The notes under the pieces: model-generated
What the model was told of the DNA's origin: nothing
The model's input: only the letters and a program-made list of their open reading frames with translations
Database searches by the model: none
Made by a program: the position numbers and the translations under genes
Shown here: positions 4,403 to 12,630 of the stretch, piece after piece
Layout of the letters: every line of letters starts with the position of its first letter
How positions within the stretch are numbered: position 1 is the stretch's first letter
From: a virus
Length of the DNA stretch: 30,839 bases
Direction: 5' to 3' (one strand)
Virus record (IMG/VR): IMGVR_UViG_3300010157_000178
Coordinates: 1 to 30,839 of that record

Positions 4403-4687
4403 TTACTTGAGAAGTGACATTTCTTCATCTGACAAAGAATCATCCAAATCTGGATCATAGTCTTTTCGATGATTTACGGAAACAGCAGATTTTTTTAGCG
4501 CATTATCAACTGAATTGAATGTGTTTTGTGCTGCATCAACAGCAAAATCTTGAAGTAAACGAAATACAGCAACAACAGTTGAGTAATCTTTATTTACAAG
4601 TTCTTCATAAACATAGGTTTTTAGTTCACTGTATCTTTTGTCATTAATTATTGCTGCTGCAAGATTAACTACATTTAAATTATCCAT
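4403..4687 (-). CDS. Small acidic-tailed head-module protein, unknown (94 aa)
   Basis: Unrecognised. It is predicted to be mostly alpha-helical, with an acidic C-terminus (DPDLDDSLSDEEMSLLK). Its start overlaps the portal stop by 8 nt, which implies translational coupling, and it precedes the scaffold-like gene by 21 nt. Position between portal and scaffold suggests a head-assembly cofactor. No motif supports a specific role. Confidence 0.75.
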   Translation of the reverse strand: MDNLNVVNLAAAIINDKRYSELKTYVYEELVNKDYSTVVAVFRLLQDFAVDAAQNTFNSVDNALKKSAVSVNHRKDYDPDLDDSLSDEEMSLLK

Positions 4688-7292
4688 TATTTTGTCCTAT
4701 TTGCGGGTTGCTTTGTGCTAACTGTTCTTGTTGAGCAATTGCCTGCTGTTGCATTGCTTGTTCTTGAACATTCTGTTGTTCATTATGACTCAAATCTTGT
4801 TCGTGACTATCCTGTATCATGCTAGAATCATGAGATGCTTTAGCTCTTTTAATTTGAATCTCATTCTGGGCTTTAGCTCTCTTTGTAGCAAGATCCGTTG
4901 CAACTCTTTCCATTGCATTTGAATTGTGAATTTGTGATTTCTGAGCCATTGCTGCCAACTTAATGTTTTCTTTCTTCTGCAAAGCGTTAGTTTGGATGGA
5001 TTCTCTAGCAACCAAACCTTGGAGCTTAATTGTATCAGGATCTTGGTTCTGATTACCTTGCTGCTGTTGTTTTGCTGCTTCCATTTGTGCAAGCTGACTT
5101 CCAATCTCATCAGTTCCACGCTGAAGCTGTTGCATCATCATTGCAAATTCCTTTGCCATAGCTTTCTTTGTAGGATCTCTTTGTATAAAACTAAGGTGAG
5201 CTACCATATGAGGCCCCTTAAACCGCAAGATGCAAGCGTAGATGTCTTTAATAAGGTTAAATGCTTCATCAGACACCCCTTGAGTAGCTTGCTGGCGTGT
5301 TGGGGCTTGTGGATTAACTCCACTTGATTGCATGGCCTGTTGGGCTTCCTGCAATGATGCACCAGCATCTTGAATATGACCTTTGAAATGATCAACATGG
5401 TTTTGATCAGGATAAACTCTAAAGTTTGCTGCATTTCCTTTAGGATCAGTCATTCCGATATTCTCCATTGAAATTATTGCCTGTTCGCTAGGAATATCAA
5501 TTTTTGTTTGCTTCATGTAGCGATTAACATTTTGGCGACCATTCAAGGCAGCAATAGCATCGGCAATTGCATTGGCTTGCCCCTCATTCATAGGAGTCAT
5601 TCCTGTAAGTGAAACTGTTTCTTGTGCTGCCATCAACTTGTAGGAAGGGCTACCAGAGCCAGCAAGCATATTGCTTTCTAAGTTTTCAATATTTTCCCAC
5701 TTCCAAGCCTCTTCTGGAACTTGGTTTTCATTCATGAAATCTACAAATTTTTCCTTTAATTTATATCCATTTCCTCCACGCTTTGTTCTGCTCATCCTCT
5801 TATATAGCATACGAAGCCAGCGAGTTTGATTGTCATTGAAGCGACGAATTTGTGTTCCTTGGAGCTTTGCGGATTCAGCCGCATCCATTTCAGCTTCTTT
5901 CTTTGTACGAGATTTACCAGTCTTAGAATAATTCCCAATATTGTATGCACCAATCCCACGATAAAGATCGGCTTGGTACATTTGCATTCCAGAAAATAAC
6001 TCTCCAAGAGGAACTGATAGATTTACCTGTTGTGGCTCTACATCTTGGGGAAGGATCATCCAAGGCTGCCACTCCATCTGCTTGATTTTTTTTGTGGATT
6101 CAGCATTACCTCCCTTCAGCATTAATCGTGTACTCCAATCCATTGCATCAAATGCACGATTCATGTGGATGTCATATGCCCTACATTGGATAAAGATTGC
6201 TTCAGCAAGTCCTTGAACTTCATGCCAGATACCAGAACCCGTTGAGTCAGTCATTGGGGCAATCACATCCTCCCAGCCATTCTCATCTTTTTCTACCCAA
6301 TCTTTTCGGTAATAAATAAAGCCTGTTTGGTCACGATACTCTTCCTCTGTAAGATCTTTGCGACCATTTTCTTTGTAGCCGAGTACAAGCCCACCATAGT
6401 TTTGCAACAAAAGCATTTTAGAGATACTTCCATTGAACTCCATGATATAAAGTTCATACAACTCAATTCTAAGTGTATAGAGTCGGGAAAGATTCATGTT
6501 ACCAGACGCAACATCTCTTAGCCATTCGGTATTGGTGTAGGTATTCCGATAGTTTGTAGTAAACATTCTTAATGCATCTACACAAGCCCAGAAGTTCCAC
6601 CCCATATCTGAAGCGTGTTTTTCTGCCTTTATAGGATCTTCTTCACCCCCAGTAATCTTTAACCAGAACTCAAGGGGAGTATAAGAACGCTTAATGCAAA
6701 GCTCACCAAGATTAGTAAGATCAGCATAGGTTTTGTCAGGAATAAGAACATTCGAGTTATGGAAACTCTTTGTAGGCCAACCATCTCGATCTTCAGCAAT
6801 TTCAAATCCTTTTCCATAAAGGGTCATTTCCTCCACATCCAATTCAACATTATAATTGTAGGATGTCCAAGATCGTAGCATTCGATCAAATCCAACGCTA
6901 ATCAAGTTGCTCCAAATTTCCTTTTCGCTAGGATTTCCAACTTTGGTGGTAATATTTGCAGCAGTATTGCGCTCCATTACCATGTCCACAAAACTAGACT
7001 TTTGATTGTCTACAATAAACTTCATCTGACGAAATGGCACATTGCTCATTCCAGAAAGTTGTCGTGCAGCTACCTGACTATAATCGGTAGGGGGGAATCC
7101 CTTGTAGCACTTGTAAATACGGCCCCATTTGCGCTCTCTGCCAGCATTATCAAGTCGAAGATTCCAACAAATAGTAAAAGCATCGTTGGCTGTTTGAACT
7201 CTACTAGTTGGAGCAACGCCATTTGAGTTGATGGTATTAAAACCCCAACTTGATACGCCCTCTCGGTTTACTATTTTTTTGGTTTTAGCCAT
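4680..7292 (-). CDS. Portal protein (870 aa)
   Basis: Dodecameric ring through which DNA enters and leaves the head. The size, the neighbours (divergent large terminase on one side, scaffold and capsid on the other) and the general composition fit a large portal of the podovirus-like type. The N-terminal 600 residues are globular and rich in Trp, Tyr and Asn. Residues from about 640 on are extremely Gln-rich and helical (QAMQSSGVNPQAPTRQQ, then repeated QQQ and HEQ stretches), as in a portal barrel or tail extension. It starts within a TAATG overlap with the upstream gene. The fold is inferred; no short diagnostic motif exists for portals. Confidence 0.82.
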   Translation of the reverse strand: MAKTKKIVNREGVSSWGFNTINSNGVAPTSRVQTANDAFTICWNLRLDNAGRERKWGRIYKCYKGFPPTDYSQVAARQLSGMSNVPFRQMKFIVDNQKSSFVDMVMERNTAANITTKVGNPSEKEIWSNLISVGFDRMLRSWTSYNYNVELDVEEMTLYGKGFEIAEDRDGWPTKSFHNSNVLIPDKTYADLTNLGELCIKRSYTPLEFWLKITGGEEDPIKAEKHASDMGWNFWACVDALRMFTTNYRNTYTNTEWLRDVASGNMNLSRLYTLRIELYELYIMEFNGSISKMLLLQNYGGLVLGYKENGRKDLTEEEYRDQTGFIYYRKDWVEKDENGWEDVIAPMTDSTGSGIWHEVQGLAEAIFIQCRAYDIHMNRAFDAMDWSTRLMLKGGNAESTKKIKQMEWQPWMILPQDVEPQQVNLSVPLGELFSGMQMYQADLYRGIGAYNIGNYSKTGKSRTKKEAEMDAAESAKLQGTQIRRFNDNQTRWLRMLYKRMSRTKRGGNGYKLKEKFVDFMNENQVPEEAWKWENIENLESNMLAGSGSPSYKLMAAQETVSLTGMTPMNEGQANAIADAIAALNGRQNVNRYMKQTKIDIPSEQAIISMENIGMTDPKGNAANFRVYPDQNHVDHFKGHIQDAGASLQEAQQAMQSSGVNPQAPTRQQATQGVSDEAFNLIKDIYACILRFKGPHMVAHLSFIQRDPTKKAMAKEFAMMMQQLQRGTDEIGSQLAQMEAAKQQQQGNQNQDPDTIKLQGLVARESIQTNALQKKENIKLAAMAQKSQIHNSNAMERVATDLATKRAKAQNEIQIKRAKASHDSSMIQDSHEQDLSHNEQQNVQEQAMQQQAIAQQEQLAQSNPQIGQNNG

Positions 7293-7733: not shown

Positions 7734-9662
7734 ATGGAATACAACGGATTCAATTTACGACCACCCGAAGATACAACTTATGGATTGAGTTTTCTAGAAA
7801 CATCTCCTCAATTTATGAGAGAGCTGATTGCATACAGATTGACCCGTGGTGAGTTTGGAAGGAGAGAGAGAATCAAAATGGGAATCAAATTAGAGAATAC
7901 AACTCTAAAAAATCCTGCACAACACATGATCAACTGTTTTCAATTAATTTTTGAAGATGATGTTTTGCTCCATTCTCAAGGAATAGTAAATAATTATGCC
8001 GTAGACATCGTTGACTTGTTTTGTAACGAGAACGATTGGGGAATTGCAGGGTGCGCCAGTAGTGGAAAAACTTTTTCTGTAGCTGCTTGTATTGTGATTG
8101 ATTGGCTTTGCGCCCCGAATTGTACCTCAACCTATGTTGCATCTACTTCTTTAGATGCTTCAGAAGATCGTTTATGGGGTAAAGTCTGTACGCTCTATCG
8201 AGTTGCAATGCGTAATTTGCAGTCTAAATATGGAAAGGATTCAAGCATTGGAAACCTTGTAGAATACCGAAGGATGATTGTTTTTGAATCAATTGATACC
8301 AAGGATTCTGAGCGTGACTATACAAATGCCATAAAAGCCCTAGCTTTTCCTCGTGGGGGCGAGGGCAAACGATCTGTTGAAAACACAAGGGGTCGTAAGA
8401 ACGCAAGAATGCGCTTATTTCTCGACGAATTGGCTGAAATGGATCTTTATGCGCTTGATACTCGCGTGAACCTTGGAGCCAATCCTGACTTTATATTTGG
8501 GGGTATGGCAAATCCTTCAAATACGGCAAATAATCCTCACACTGAACTATGCCAGCCAGATGATCCGATGGAGTGGGATGCTGTAACAAGATATACCCAC
8601 AAATGGACTACTAGAACAGGTGTTGCGTTACATCTTTCTGGAGAAGATAGCCCAAATTTCAAAGTTCCTGATGCAATAATACCTCCATTTGATCGCTTCC
8701 TGACTATTGAAGGAGAAGCTGCAACATTAAAACGATGCTACGGAAACAAAAATGCCCTAGAATATTGGAGAAATGTCTATGGTTGGTGGCCCGATAGTTC
8801 AGTAGAACTCACAATTTTTTCAAAGCAATTTATCCAAGCGTGTGATATTGCTTGGGAACCCACTTGGAGTGATCGAACAAGAGTGGTGTGCGGCTTTGAC
8901 CCTGCATTTACTGCTGGAGGAGATAGATGTGCAGCTACTTTCTGTAGATATGGCCCAAATGATACTGGAAGAAGGGTAGGTTTTTATCTTGGAACTAAAG
9001 AATACTCTTCATCTGTTGGTGATGTTTTCGAGGAATCTATTGCAATGCAATTGGTAAAAGATTGTTTAGAGTATGGAGTCCATCCAAGAGACTTTGGATT
9101 GGATATTTCGGGCGATGGAGGCAAGATGCTGCGAGCAATCATCATTGAATGGGGAAAATTCCATCCAGAGGCCATGTTCATCCATCCTATTTCTTCTATG
9201 GGAATGCCTACGGATCGAAAGATTAGCAGTCTTGATAAGCGCACTGCTAAAGAAGCCTATGATCGCAGGGTAACGGAGTCTTGGTTCCAAGTTCATACTG
9301 CCATGTCAACTAAAAGTTTAGTTGGCATAGATGTGGAAAAACATAGTTCAATAGTAAACGAGCTTTGCAGTAGGCTTTATTTTCACAAAGGAAGAAAGGT
9401 AGCTGTTGAGAAAAAGCTAGACATGAAAAAGCGCATCAAGAAGTCGCCAGATTTGGCTGACTCTTTGACCTACGCAGTGGAGATGCTTAGTAAGGCAGGA
9501 CTTGAATTTACTTTTGAAGATGATGCAAAGGAATCCTTAGACATCTTGGAAATCAGGGATTGGGAGGATCGGCTAATTCACAGCAAAAATAATTCTCAGG
9601 AAGAAGTTGACAACGACGATTGGGGATATGGCAGTAGCTCGGTTGATCCAGATGGTTTTTAG
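7734..9662 (+). CDS. terL: Terminase large subunit (642 aa)
   Basis: The DNA-packaging motor: an N-terminal ATPase and a C-terminal RNase H-like nuclease that cuts concatemers. A Walker A-type loop GCASSGKT is at residues 106-113, followed by a hydrophobic strand. Walker B plus catalytic Glu are in MRLFLDELAEM (D231, E232). The nuclease Asp cluster is in CGFDPAF (D389), GLDISGDGG (D457/D461) and DLADSLTYA (D576), in the order expected for TerL. The length is normal for large podovirus-type terminases. It is transcribed divergently from the portal operon, and its small subunit is about 6 kb away. It has no visible Shine-Dalgarno. Confidence 0.95.
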   Translation: MEYNGFNLRPPEDTTYGLSFLETSPQFMRELIAYRLTRGEFGRRERIKMGIKLENTTLKNPAQHMINCFQLIFEDDVLLHSQGIVNNYAVDIVDLFCNENDWGIAGCASSGKTFSVAACIVIDWLCAPNCTSTYVASTSLDASEDRLWGKVCTLYRVAMRNLQSKYGKDSSIGNLVEYRRMIVFESIDTKDSERDYTNAIKALAFPRGGEGKRSVENTRGRKNARMRLFLDELAEMDLYALDTRVNLGANPDFIFGGMANPSNTANNPHTELCQPDDPMEWDAVTRYTHKWTTRTGVALHLSGEDSPNFKVPDAIIPPFDRFLTIEGEAATLKRCYGNKNALEYWRNVYGWWPDSSVELTIFSKQFIQACDIAWEPTWSDRTRVVCGFDPAFTAGGDRCAATFCRYGPNDTGRRVGFYLGTKEYSSSVGDVFEESIAMQLVKDCLEYGVHPRDFGLDISGDGGKMLRAIIIEWGKFHPEAMFIHPISSMGMPTDRKISSLDKRTAKEAYDRRVTESWFQVHTAMSTKSLVGIDVEKHSSIVNELCSRLYFHKGRKVAVEKKLDMKKRIKKSPDLADSLTYAVEMLSKAGLEFTFEDDAKESLDILEIRDWEDRLIHSKNNSQEEVDNDDWGYGSSSVDPDGF

Positions 9663-10083: not shown

Positions 10084-11040
10084 ATGGCTAGATTCTCCCC
10101 TCAAGAGTTCAGAAATGGTTCAATGATTCCTTCAGTCCTAGAAGGTAAGATTGATTCTTCTGTTTCTTCCTTGATGAAAACCGATACTCCTAAATTTGGT
10201 GGCGGTCAGTACAAGCGCAAGCCTAGTTTCCTCATGTGTCCTCCCAAATACTTGTCCACGGCTATTGCCAACAACAAGTTTATGAAGGGTCAGAAGGTAG
10301 ATACGGAAAGGGCAATGCGTCAGTACACCCGAATCAAGCGTCTCATTACTGCTCTCGGTGTAAAAGTACTTGAGTTGCCACCTACCAAGGGAGCGCAAGA
10401 TCAACACTTTGTTGCCAACCTTGGTCTATCCGTTGATCCTTTTATCTTCATCGCAAAAATGAGTGCAGATGGTAGGCAGATTGAAGAGGAACCTGGTCGT
10501 AGGTTCTTTGAAAAAATGGGTTATACCGTTCTCCAACCTCCTCACTCTTGGGAGGGAGAAGCTGAAACAAAGTACTGGAAAGACAATATTTATTTTGGAG
10601 GTCATGGAAAGTTTTCCGATTGGAAAGCACAAGAATGGATTTCCAAAAAAGCTGGGGTTGAAATTATCCCCATGAAGATGGTGAGTGATAATCTTTACCA
10701 TTTGGATTGCTGTATCCATGTCATCGACAAAGATAATTTCATGGTTTGCCGTTCTGGTATTGATTCCGAATCATTTAAGCGTCTTGAGAAGCTGGCAAAC
10801 ATCATTGTGGTTCCCAAGGAAATTGAAGCTACTGGAGCTACCAATTTGATCCGTATTCCAGACAAGAACATTGTCATCAGTGGTATGTTCCAGCCAGAGT
10901 ATGACAACTATCGCAAGAGCATGGAATGGATGTTGACTACAATGGACAAGTTTAACAACTCGGTTATCTTTGCAGACATAGATGAGGCAGATAAAAATGG
11001 AGCAGATTGCTCATGCCAAGTCATGCACATTACTTTTTAG
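10084..11040 (+). CDS. Guanidino-modifying enzyme, DDAH/amidinotransferase-like (318 aa)
   Basis: Member of the pentein superfamily that hydrolyses or transfers the guanidino carbon of arginine-type substrates through a Cys covalent intermediate (dimethylarginine dimethylaminohydrolase, arginine deiminase, amidinotransferase). Visible family landmarks in order: FLMCPPKY (49-56, the family's strand-1 motif), DQHFVANLGL (106-115, Asp before the F-x-A-N turn), WEGEAE (156-161, acidic substrate-binding site), FGGHGKFSD (171-179), YHLDCC (205-210, catalytic His206 and Asp208) and a C-terminal Cys (C309 or C311, followed by a strand). All active-site positions seem kept. About 40 extra N-terminal residues precede the fold. 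Substrate unknown: arginine, methylarginine or a related guanidine. The gene is not a standard phage function; it lies between terL and small phage genes, so it is part of the phage. Confidence 0.82.
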   Translation: MARFSPQEFRNGSMIPSVLEGKIDSSVSSLMKTDTPKFGGGQYKRKPSFLMCPPKYLSTAIANNKFMKGQKVDTERAMRQYTRIKRLITALGVKVLELPPTKGAQDQHFVANLGLSVDPFIFIAKMSADGRQIEEEPGRRFFEKMGYTVLQPPHSWEGEAETKYWKDNIYFGGHGKFSDWKAQEWISKKAGVEIIPMKMVSDNLYHLDCCIHVIDKDNFMVCRSGIDSESFKRLEKLANIIVVPKEIEATGATNLIRIPDKNIVISGMFQPEYDNYRKSMEWMLTTMDKFNNSVIFADIDEADKNGADCSCQVMHITF

Positions 11041-11041
11041 G

Positions 11042-11212
11042 ATGAAATCCCTCTTTGATAAATTCATAGGAGGGATAGCTTATCTGAACGGTCTTTGCCC
11101 AAAATGCTGGCAAGAAATTTATGGTGGACAAGAAAGATCCTGCCATGTATGCCGTGTCGCAGGAATGATTACTCCTAATCATATCTGGCATAGATTCATA
11201 ACCAAAAAATAA
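11042..11212 (+). CDS. Zinc-ribbon mini protein (56 aa)
   Basis: Unrecognised. Two Cys pairs, CPKC and CHVC, separated by about 14 residues can form one zinc ribbon; the rest is basic and aromatic. I chose the ATG at 11042, one base after the stop of the DDAH-like gene, rather than an upstream in-frame start inside that gene. Tight spacing means co-transcription. Nucleic-acid or protein binding is possible. Confidence 0.7.
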   Translation: MKSLFDKFIGGIAYLNGLCPKCWQEIYGGQERSCHVCRVAGMITPNHIWHRFITKK

Positions 11213-11396: not shown

Positions 11397-11515
11397 ACAA
11401 ACAAGCAACCAACATATCTGCCAAACCTTATGCCGCTCTTCGTCCTGCTAGAGTTTCTTACGGCTCCATTCAAAAGCCAAAAACCAAAACAAAGCGTAAA
11501 CTTAGAAAAGTTTAA
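11393..11515 (+). CDS. Tiny basic protein (40 aa)
   Basis: Short open frame in the ATGA overlap with the 60-aa gene (stop at 11394-11396) and one base before the next start. It is very basic at the C-terminus (KPKTKTKRKLRKV). The perfect packing between two accepted genes and the absence of another frame here support it as real. Function unknown; it may bind nucleic acid. Confidence 0.55.
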   Translation: MNKQATNISAKPYAALRPARVSYGSIQKPKTKTKRKLRKV

Positions 11516-11516
11516 T

Positions 11517-11834
11517 ATGAATGCCGAACAAGATGCTTTTGATATTTGGTCTAAAGCTGGAACGGCTGGAATGGAAAAATACAAAAAGGGCCAGAAAGAA
11601 CACAAGAGTGATTTTTGGACTGCTGGAGCAGGATGGTATGCAGAAAACCTAAAAGACGAACAGCTTGATTTGATCAGCTATCTTCACCACTTAACGGAAC
11701 GGATCAAAACCTGTCAGATGCTTGCAAAGATGATGGAAGCAAATGAAATCTCATTAACTGATGCAGCGGTTCTTTTAAATAATCTTGTTTCCAATCTTCC
11801 CCCAAGGAAACGCAGCAATAAAATTCATGACTAA
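11517..11834 (+). CDS. Helical protein, possibly MazG-like (105 aa)
   Basis: Not firmly recognised. A predicted all-alpha protein with WYAENLKDEQLDLISYLHHL around residues 40-59. The E-x-x-D-x-x-x-Y spacing resembles the metal-binding helix of all-alpha NTP pyrophosphohydrolases (MazG/dUTPase-like), which are common in phages. The second acidic pair of that family is not obvious, so this is only a suggestion. I place the start at 11517; a frame start at 11430 would cover the whole 40-aa gene. Overlaps the metallophosphoesterase start by 8 nt. Confidence 0.65.
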   Translation: MNAEQDAFDIWSKAGTAGMEKYKKGQKEHKSDFWTAGAGWYAENLKDEQLDLISYLHHLTERIKTCQMLAKMMEANEISLTDAAVLLNNLVSNLPPRKRSNKIHD

Positions 11835-12630
11835 GAAAACACCCTTGGGAGCAGTAATCATAAGCGATCTCCACTGTGGTTCTGTTGTAGGGCTTTGGCC
11901 TGACAATCACATCACATCAACAGGAAATAAAATCGGTCTTGGTAATAACATTCACCAAAAATGGTTGTGGCAATGCTGGAATGACATCGAGGTTAAAATT
12001 AAAGATCACTTCAAGGGAGAACCATTTGCCTTGATTATAAATGGAGATTGTATTGAAGGGCGACATCATGGCACTACAGAAATTGTAGTTGCCTTAAATT
12101 TAGATCATGCGCTCGCTGCTATCGAATGCCTAAAGCCATTATCTAAACTTGCTTCCGTAACCTACATGACTGCTGGAACAGAATGCCATGTTGGAGATTG
12201 GGAAAAAATGATATGCCAAGAAATTGGAGGAAAATGGCTAGGAGACAAAGGACTCATCGAAATCAATGGAACGCTGATTGATATTGCTCACCATATGCCG
12301 ACGAGTTCTAGGGCATACCTTGAGGCAGGAGCGATGTCTATAACAATGGGTAATGCTCGCCAAAACTACTCTCGTGTTGGGCATAGAGTTCCCAAAGTAT
12401 ATTTACGGGGACATCGACATACGGGGGGAATATTCAATGATGGATCAGGAGTATTAATGGTAACGCCAGCTTGGCGGCTATTGACCAGATATGCTTACAA
12501 GGTAGTTGGTGATTCTATTTGTCGTCCAGGGTTTGGAATACTTGATTGGCGTGGATGTGCCAAAGGAGATTTACCAGCAACCAAACTAACCGTATATGAA
12601 CCAAAAGAAAATAAACCCATCGGAATCTGA
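11827..12630 (+). CDS. Calcineurin-like metallophosphoesterase (267 aa)
   Basis: A two-metal phosphoesterase of the Mre11/SbcD/calcineurin superfamily. Signature motifs appear in order: SDLHCG (D14, H16), INGDCIEG (N72-G73-D74), GTECHVG (H121, in the place of GNHE), IAHHM (H155/H156) and RGHRHTGG (H196, H198). This is a complete set of metal ligands. No nuclease accessory or capping domain is present, so substrate could be a nucleic-acid end or a small phosphoester. It overlaps both its neighbours, so it belongs to the accessory operon. Confidence 0.88.
   Translation: MTKKTPLGAVIISDLHCGSVVGLWPDNHITSTGNKIGLGNNIHQKWLWQCWNDIEVKIKDHFKGEPFALIINGDCIEGRHHGTTEIVVALNLDHALAAIECLKPLSKLASVTYMTAGTECHVGDWEKMICQEIGGKWLGDKGLIEINGTLIDIAHHMPTSSRAYLEAGAMSITMGNARQNYSRVGHRVPKVYLRGHRHTGGIFNDGSGVLMVTPAWRLLTRYAYKVVGDSICRPGFGILDWRGCAKGDLPATKLTVYEPKENKPIGI

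Follow-up and report, generated by a model that had tools for sequence, protein, structure and literature searches.

What a phage would do with an enzyme that modifies guanidino groups, and on which substrate such an enzyme would act, is the question raised by a gene on a 30.8-kb virus record, IMGVR_UViG_3300010157_000178, whose full stretch of 30,839 nucleotides is referred to here as the window. The gene (positions 10,084–11,040, plus strand) encodes a protein of 318 residues, and its reading frame begins with an ATG, the first start codon past an upstream in-frame stop. The reading frame and the motifs FLMCPPKY, DQHFVAN, WEGEAE, and YHLDCC named in the original prediction are all present. 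Sequence searches matched the protein to DDAH_eukar in Pfam (PF19420; E = 1e-10), to PHROG 12759 (function unknown; E = 2.7e-19), to ArgZ in the PDB (E = 3e-17), and to DDAH and ArgZ models in NCBIfam (E = 1e-20 to 1e-25), and every relative recognized in these four collections is a pentein. The gene is confirmed to be real and its homology to penteins to lie far beyond chance. A close relative is encoded on 55 further virus contigs. Comparison with two close relatives (94–95% protein identity) gave dN values of ~0.03–0.04 and a dS of ~0.86 (dN/dS ~0.04); this low dN relative to dS means that strong purifying selection acts on the pentein.

The structure was modeled with AlphaFold2 from a 67-sequence alignment, from which the rows of both deposited phages had been omitted. 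The resulting model has a pLDDT of 87.9 and a pTM of 0.83; a model built from the single sequence (pLDDT 34) was discarded. Low confidence (pLDDT <50) is seen in residues 1–5 and 12–43, within an N-terminal tail (codons 1–44; 10,084–10,215, plus strand) that, by alignment, is present in the close clade only. The best structural match is the arginine-dihydrolase domain of ArgZ with bound arginine (6jv1; Z 38.0, 1.4 Å, 260 residues), and DDAH (Z 29), AstB (Z 29), and ADI (Z 27) rank lower. Profile searches and structure prediction had been proposed as checks on the fold; all matches were penteins, and the best fold was that of ArgZ, not a non-pentein one. Judged by these profiles and the predicted structure, the protein belongs to the pentein superfamily of guanidino-group-modifying enzymes, with an α/β propeller and a Cys–His–Glu set.

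Conservation was counted over 120 distinct viral and bacterial homologues. Asp106 (10,399–10,401), Arg131 (10,474–10,476), the triad residue Glu157 (10,552–10,554), the catalytic His206 and guanidine-binding Asp208 of an H-x-D motif (10,699–10,707), and Cys311 (11,014–11,016), all encoded on the plus strand, are invariant in 120/120, which bears out the earlier choice of Asp106, Glu157, and His206 as catalytic landmarks. Asn112 (10,417–10,419, plus strand) is Asn in 119 of the 120. The nucleophile had been given as Cys309 or Cys311. In the structure alignment, residue 318 of the model pairs with ArgZ residue 271, so that Cys311 falls on ArgZ Cys264; Cys309 was rejected, being Cys in the nearest clade only and Ile or Leu in other relatives. 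The nucleophile is thus Cys311. By alignment (6jv0 and 6juz for the Asn), ArgZ Asn71, Glu118, His168, and Cys264 all have equivalents, namely Asn112, Glu157, His206, and Cys311, and Asn71 is presumably the residue with a role in full removal of the guanidine group. Asp106 would be the equivalent of the ADI and DDAH Asp that contacts the substrate amine, its spacing agreeing with that of the corresponding NnhA residues (PMC11659421). Profiles, the confident model, and conservation all support a complete catalytic set.

The original label, DDAH/amidinotransferase-type, holds for the pentein fold and the complete catalytic set but is not the most fitting one for the type of enzyme, since the nearest solved fold is that of ArgZ/AgrE and the H-x-D motif is of the ADI/ArgZ kind. 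DDAHs share the fold, the Cys/His/Glu chemistry, and the PF19420 match with the window protein, which, however, has Asp rather than Lys in H-x-[DK] and an Asn instead of the second Asp. DDAHs carry Lys where ADI and ArgZ have the Asp of H-x-D, and this Lys accommodates the dimethylamino group (PMC11659421). A DDAH identity was rejected on the H-x-D motif, with its invariant Asp208, and on scores below the NCBIfam equivalog cut-offs for DDAH (89.9/300, 26.5/450, and 23.6/340 bits). With the N-terminal domain of ArgZ/AgrE (Synechocystis Sll1336, Anabaena Alr4995), the window protein shares the fold, the Cys/His/Glu residues, Asn at the Asn71 position, H-x-D, and the first carboxylate-binding Arg. 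In contrast to ArgZ/AgrE, it is phage-encoded, is only 23% identical, has EGEA for EGAGD, and lacks the ornithine cyclodeaminase domain; its score against the NCBIfam arginine dihydrolase model NF052232 (80.5 bits) falls short of the cut-off of 450. Of the pair of carboxylate-binding Args of ArgZ/AgrE, the first is kept as Arg131, and the second position holds Phe177 (10,612–10,614, plus strand).

Position 177 is Arg in 74/74 bacterial homologues and in 20 of the 23 distinct other viral homologues; in each of the 23 distinct close relatives and in the loci L059–L061 it is Phe. A further search added five loci with Phe177 (L294, L295, L297, L299, and L302) and one with Arg177 (L305), and a pattern scan of DNA for the motif of the L060 type gave true matches at known loci only. 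In the tree, the Phe177 proteins form one single clade (support 100/100), and among the virus and bacterial homologues searched, the clade of the window protein was seen in viruses only. The outgroup in an earlier tree, Spirulina ArgZ, carries Arg at this position by alignment, and Phe177 is therefore derived. In NnhA, a 2-nitroimidazole nitrohydrolase, the places of the two Args that bind the carboxylate in ADI and DDAH are taken by M168 and S216 (PMC11659421). M168 lies 19 residues after W149 (Asn112 in our pentein) and S216 lies 19 after E197 (Glu157); Arg131 lies 19 residues past Asn112, and Phe177 lies 20 past Glu157. From this spacing and the ArgZ alignment, we infer that Phe177 replaces one carboxylate-binding Arg, and that the other, Arg131, and the amine contact, Asp106, are kept. 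Both proteins would thus be penteins that lost a carboxylate-binding Arg, but both Args and also the amine Asp are gone from NnhA, whereas the window protein lost one Arg only (PMC11659421). With Phe in place of this Arg, the substrate may be something other than free arginine. Compensation by Lys176 was considered and rejected, as the Lys of the close clade gives way to Gln or Leu in L059–L061. The seven active-site residues are retained in 12/12 representatives with Phe177 and 36/36 with Arg177.

Neighboring genes of the pentein homologues were clustered, and a gene resembling pyruvoyl-type phosphatidylserine decarboxylases (PSD-like) stood out. Considering loci with full flanks, it adjoins the pentein gene in 19/19 other viral loci and 53 of 70 bacterial ones, often with an overlap of a few bases, and in none of 34 close relatives or two other Phe177 loci. 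All 18 PSD-like proteins sampled match Pfam PS_Dcarbxylase and retain the Gly-Ser motif, the self-cleavage site at which members of this decarboxylase family form their pyruvoyl group. The converse search found 80 viral PSD-like loci, with a pentein directly upstream in 76/76 of those with an upstream flank; Arg177 was readable in 72 of these 76 pairs and Phe in none. The pair thus occurs in at least 76 viral loci, among them T4-like contigs (L067:2982–7619 and the related L062–L085 and L180–L259), where it lies downstream of the major capsid gene. At the level of whole records, the PSD-like gene was present in all six Arg177 virus records tested and in none of 20 Phe177 records searched, some of which are fragments; SpeD and SpeE were likewise not found in the Phe177 records searched. 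The wider pentein family is part of a two-gene module with a PSD-like decarboxylase, described here for the first time, and the partner has been lost in the phage-only branch of the window.

Deposited phages carry the family too. The search of related phages that the original prediction called for returned, besides the 55 virus contigs, 38 Campylobacter and six Bacteroides phage records, some naming the protein "amidinotransferase"; the gene is hence not unique among phages, and phage penteins are already known from annotation. The PHROG 12759 members, the Campylobacter Fletchervirus "amidinotransferase," and the homologue in Bacteroides DAC phages belong to the same sequence family and have the same catalytic set (PHROG 12759 is matched by 69/69 members of our homologue set A2). 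The Campylobacter and Bacteroides proteins differ from the window protein in sequence (25–26% identity by tblastn), in having kept Arg177, and in being encoded along with a PSD-like decarboxylase, both genes being present in Campylobacter phage NCTC12673 and Bacteroides phage DAC19. Plasmids, when searched, gave distant dimethylargininase-like matches only. The idea that the pentein gene is connected with DNA modification by deoxyinosine or 7-deazaguanine in Campylobacter phages was considered and dropped; no paper was found that makes this connection.

Other decarboxylases take the neighboring place in some bacteria. A close PSD-like gene was not found in cyanobacteria and Bauldia, although their proteins have Arg177. 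In Dulcicalothrix, Tolypothrix, Cylindrospermum, and Xenococcaceae, the pentein gene adjoins one for a PLP decarboxylase, for which the best solved match is a lysine/ornithine decarboxylase in Tolypothrix, the only copy tested; in Spirulina it adjoins an Orn/Lys/Arg (OKR) decarboxylase gene. A gene of the agmatine-deiminase family lies close by in three of these decarboxylase-bearing cyanobacteria, and one virus (L305:3920–6461) has, in a row, genes for an Arg177 pentein, a PSD-like decarboxylase, and an agmatine-deiminase-family protein. TPR and cyclase genes adjoining the pentein in L148 and L160 were examined as candidates and are not decarboxylases. The occurrence of three non-homologous decarboxylase families beside one hydrolase suggests, by association, that the module could convert arginine to ornithine and then to putrescine. 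Among the bacterial loci L089–L165, a gene of a cluster containing MATE exporters is found in 39 and one of an ABC exporter cluster in 18, which suggests an exported amine product of the bacterial pair.

In the window, the pentein gene follows the terminase large subunit gene terL (7734–9662, plus strand; phrog_2, E = 1.7e-14), an order shared by related contigs. A small Cys-rich (CxxC) reading frame (11,042–11,212, plus strand; start picked by eye) lies directly past the pentein stop and has tblastn matches in 50 related contigs. Two conserved genes (134 and 281 amino acids) follow at 11,430–12,630 on the plus strand, in 46–48 related contigs, and neither protein has a match in Pfam or PHROG; the 281-residue one (11,785–12,630, plus strand), whose place downstream of the pentein is conserved in 46 contigs, shows, by eye, motifs like those of metallophosphoesterases. 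Upstream of terL lies the gene for an 870-residue protein (4680–7292), portal-like by eye, and a gene resembling that of a terminase small subunit (PF03592; 15,522–16,088) lies on the other strand, ~6 kb away from terL. A tblastn search of 50,697 phage records returned no relative of the TerL or the 870-residue protein, and the phage therefore represents a lineage with no relatives deposited there. Another Phe177 contig (L294:1545–4978) encodes a TerL 78.5% identical to that of the window but a pentein only 55.5% identical; the pentein gene is either fast-evolving or has been swapped at a constant location. In L060, L299, and L302, the pentein follows the gene for a protein of 835–841 residues, portal-like by eye (a search of the phage collection with those of L060 and L299 gave no match), and in T4-like relatives such as L067 it lies ~1.2 kb past the major capsid gene. 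Such a late, head-assembly gene position would suit polyamine supply for packaging.

The most likely reading is that the pentein is a late-gene hydrolase of arginine (or agmatine), predicted to feed host ornithine or polyamines. In its specific form, which we favor while giving it slightly less than an even chance, an intact, cofactor-free hydrolase with the ArgZ fold would convert host arginine, late in infection, to ornithine (or citrulline) and ammonia. Cys311 would attack an arginine-like substrate at its guanidine carbon, His206 and Glu157 would activate water, and Asn112 would allow either deimination or, as in a dihydrolase, removal of the whole guanidine group; the ornithine would then feed host polyamine synthesis, needed for phage replication and DNA packaging. 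We favor arginine because the model matches arginine-bound ArgZ so closely, because the seven active-site residues are kept with either residue at position 177, and because relatives are linked to three decarboxylase families and to agmatine-deiminase-like genes. Added to this, phage replication depends on polyamines, and genes for polyamine enzymes occur in other phages (PMC9992855). Against arginine stand Phe177, the lack of PSD-like, SpeD, and SpeE genes in the Phe177 records, the low identity to ArgZ, and the missed NCBIfam cut-off.

The alternative that survives best, though we consider it unlikely, is that the Phe177 clade acts on agmatine, yielding putrescine or N-carbamoylputrescine, a reaction for which the carboxylate-binding Arg and a decarboxylase partner would both be dispensable. 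It is attractive because both were lost in the same single clade, and the amine contact Asp106 is kept; in L302, moreover, a second, different pentein of the agmatine-deiminase family (PF04371; L302:4910–5779) lies 4 nt after the Phe177 pentein, although an agmatine hydrolase would have no need of a deiminase next to it. Its standing is lowered by Arg131, the other carboxylate contact, which is invariant in the clade, and by the single origin of the two traits, which are not independent evidence; some bacterial Arg177 proteins likewise lack a PSD-like partner. A broader version is a shade more doubtful: the phage-only subfamily would have shifted from arginine to a guanidine that lacks a carboxylate, such as agmatine, giving putrescine directly, and would derive from an unrecognized, widespread arginine-to-polyamine module of ArgZ-like hydrolase and PSD-like pyruvoyl decarboxylase common to phages and bacteria.

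It seems improbable that the enzyme hydrolyzes a guanidine not belonging to central arginine metabolism, such as methylarginine, arginine in proteins, or a host defense or signaling molecule. NnhA shows that loss of carboxylate-binding Arg can accompany a non-arginine substrate (PMC11659421), and the clade is known from viruses only; yet the DDAH-type Lys is absent, the amine Asp and one Arg are kept, and no neighboring defense or counter-defense gene was recognized. The anti-defense or methylarginine role first proposed thus found no supporting evidence, and the neighborhoods of relatives point to ornithine or polyamine supply. An amidinotransferase, with arginine as donor and some amine (conceivably a small one or a modified base) as acceptor, is more improbable still: such enzymes belong to the same superfamily, phage homologues are so annotated, and AGAT, StrB1, and SxtG match the model at Z 24–25, but the hydrolase fold fits clearly better (Z 38 for ArgZ), the protein lacks the larger size of AGAT, and the partners in relatives are decarboxylases. 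No amidinotransferase Pfam match appeared at E 0.01, though the fold by itself is compatible with transfer as well. A non-catalytic pentein for structure or for RNA or protein binding, as in RESC5 (among the structural matches) and eIF6, is very improbable given that every catalytic residue is invariant across 45–95% identity.

Phages are known to carry polyamine genes, and the route proposed here is a different one, of two small enzymes; like the AdoMetDC-derived pyruvoyl ADC/ODC of phages, these are phage-encoded and proposed to raise polyamine supply, but they are non-homologous. The main text of PMC9992855 mentions no dihydrolase, amidinotransferase, or PSD-like route, an ocean survey treats psd and GATM/GAMT in separate pathways (PMC11360552), and we found no paper in the open-access literature tying the pentein to the PSD-like gene. 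Genes for the ArgZ-like hydrolase and the PSD-like decarboxylase are found together across many bacteria and in phages that are unrelated, and seem to have been catalogued apart, the one as "amidinotransferase" and the other as "phosphatidylserine decarboxylase." If the proposed route is true, phage gene catalogues that treat the pair as creatine or phospholipid genes need rereading, and the Phe177 clade would be a natural experiment in how a pentein changes substrate upon loss of its pathway partner.
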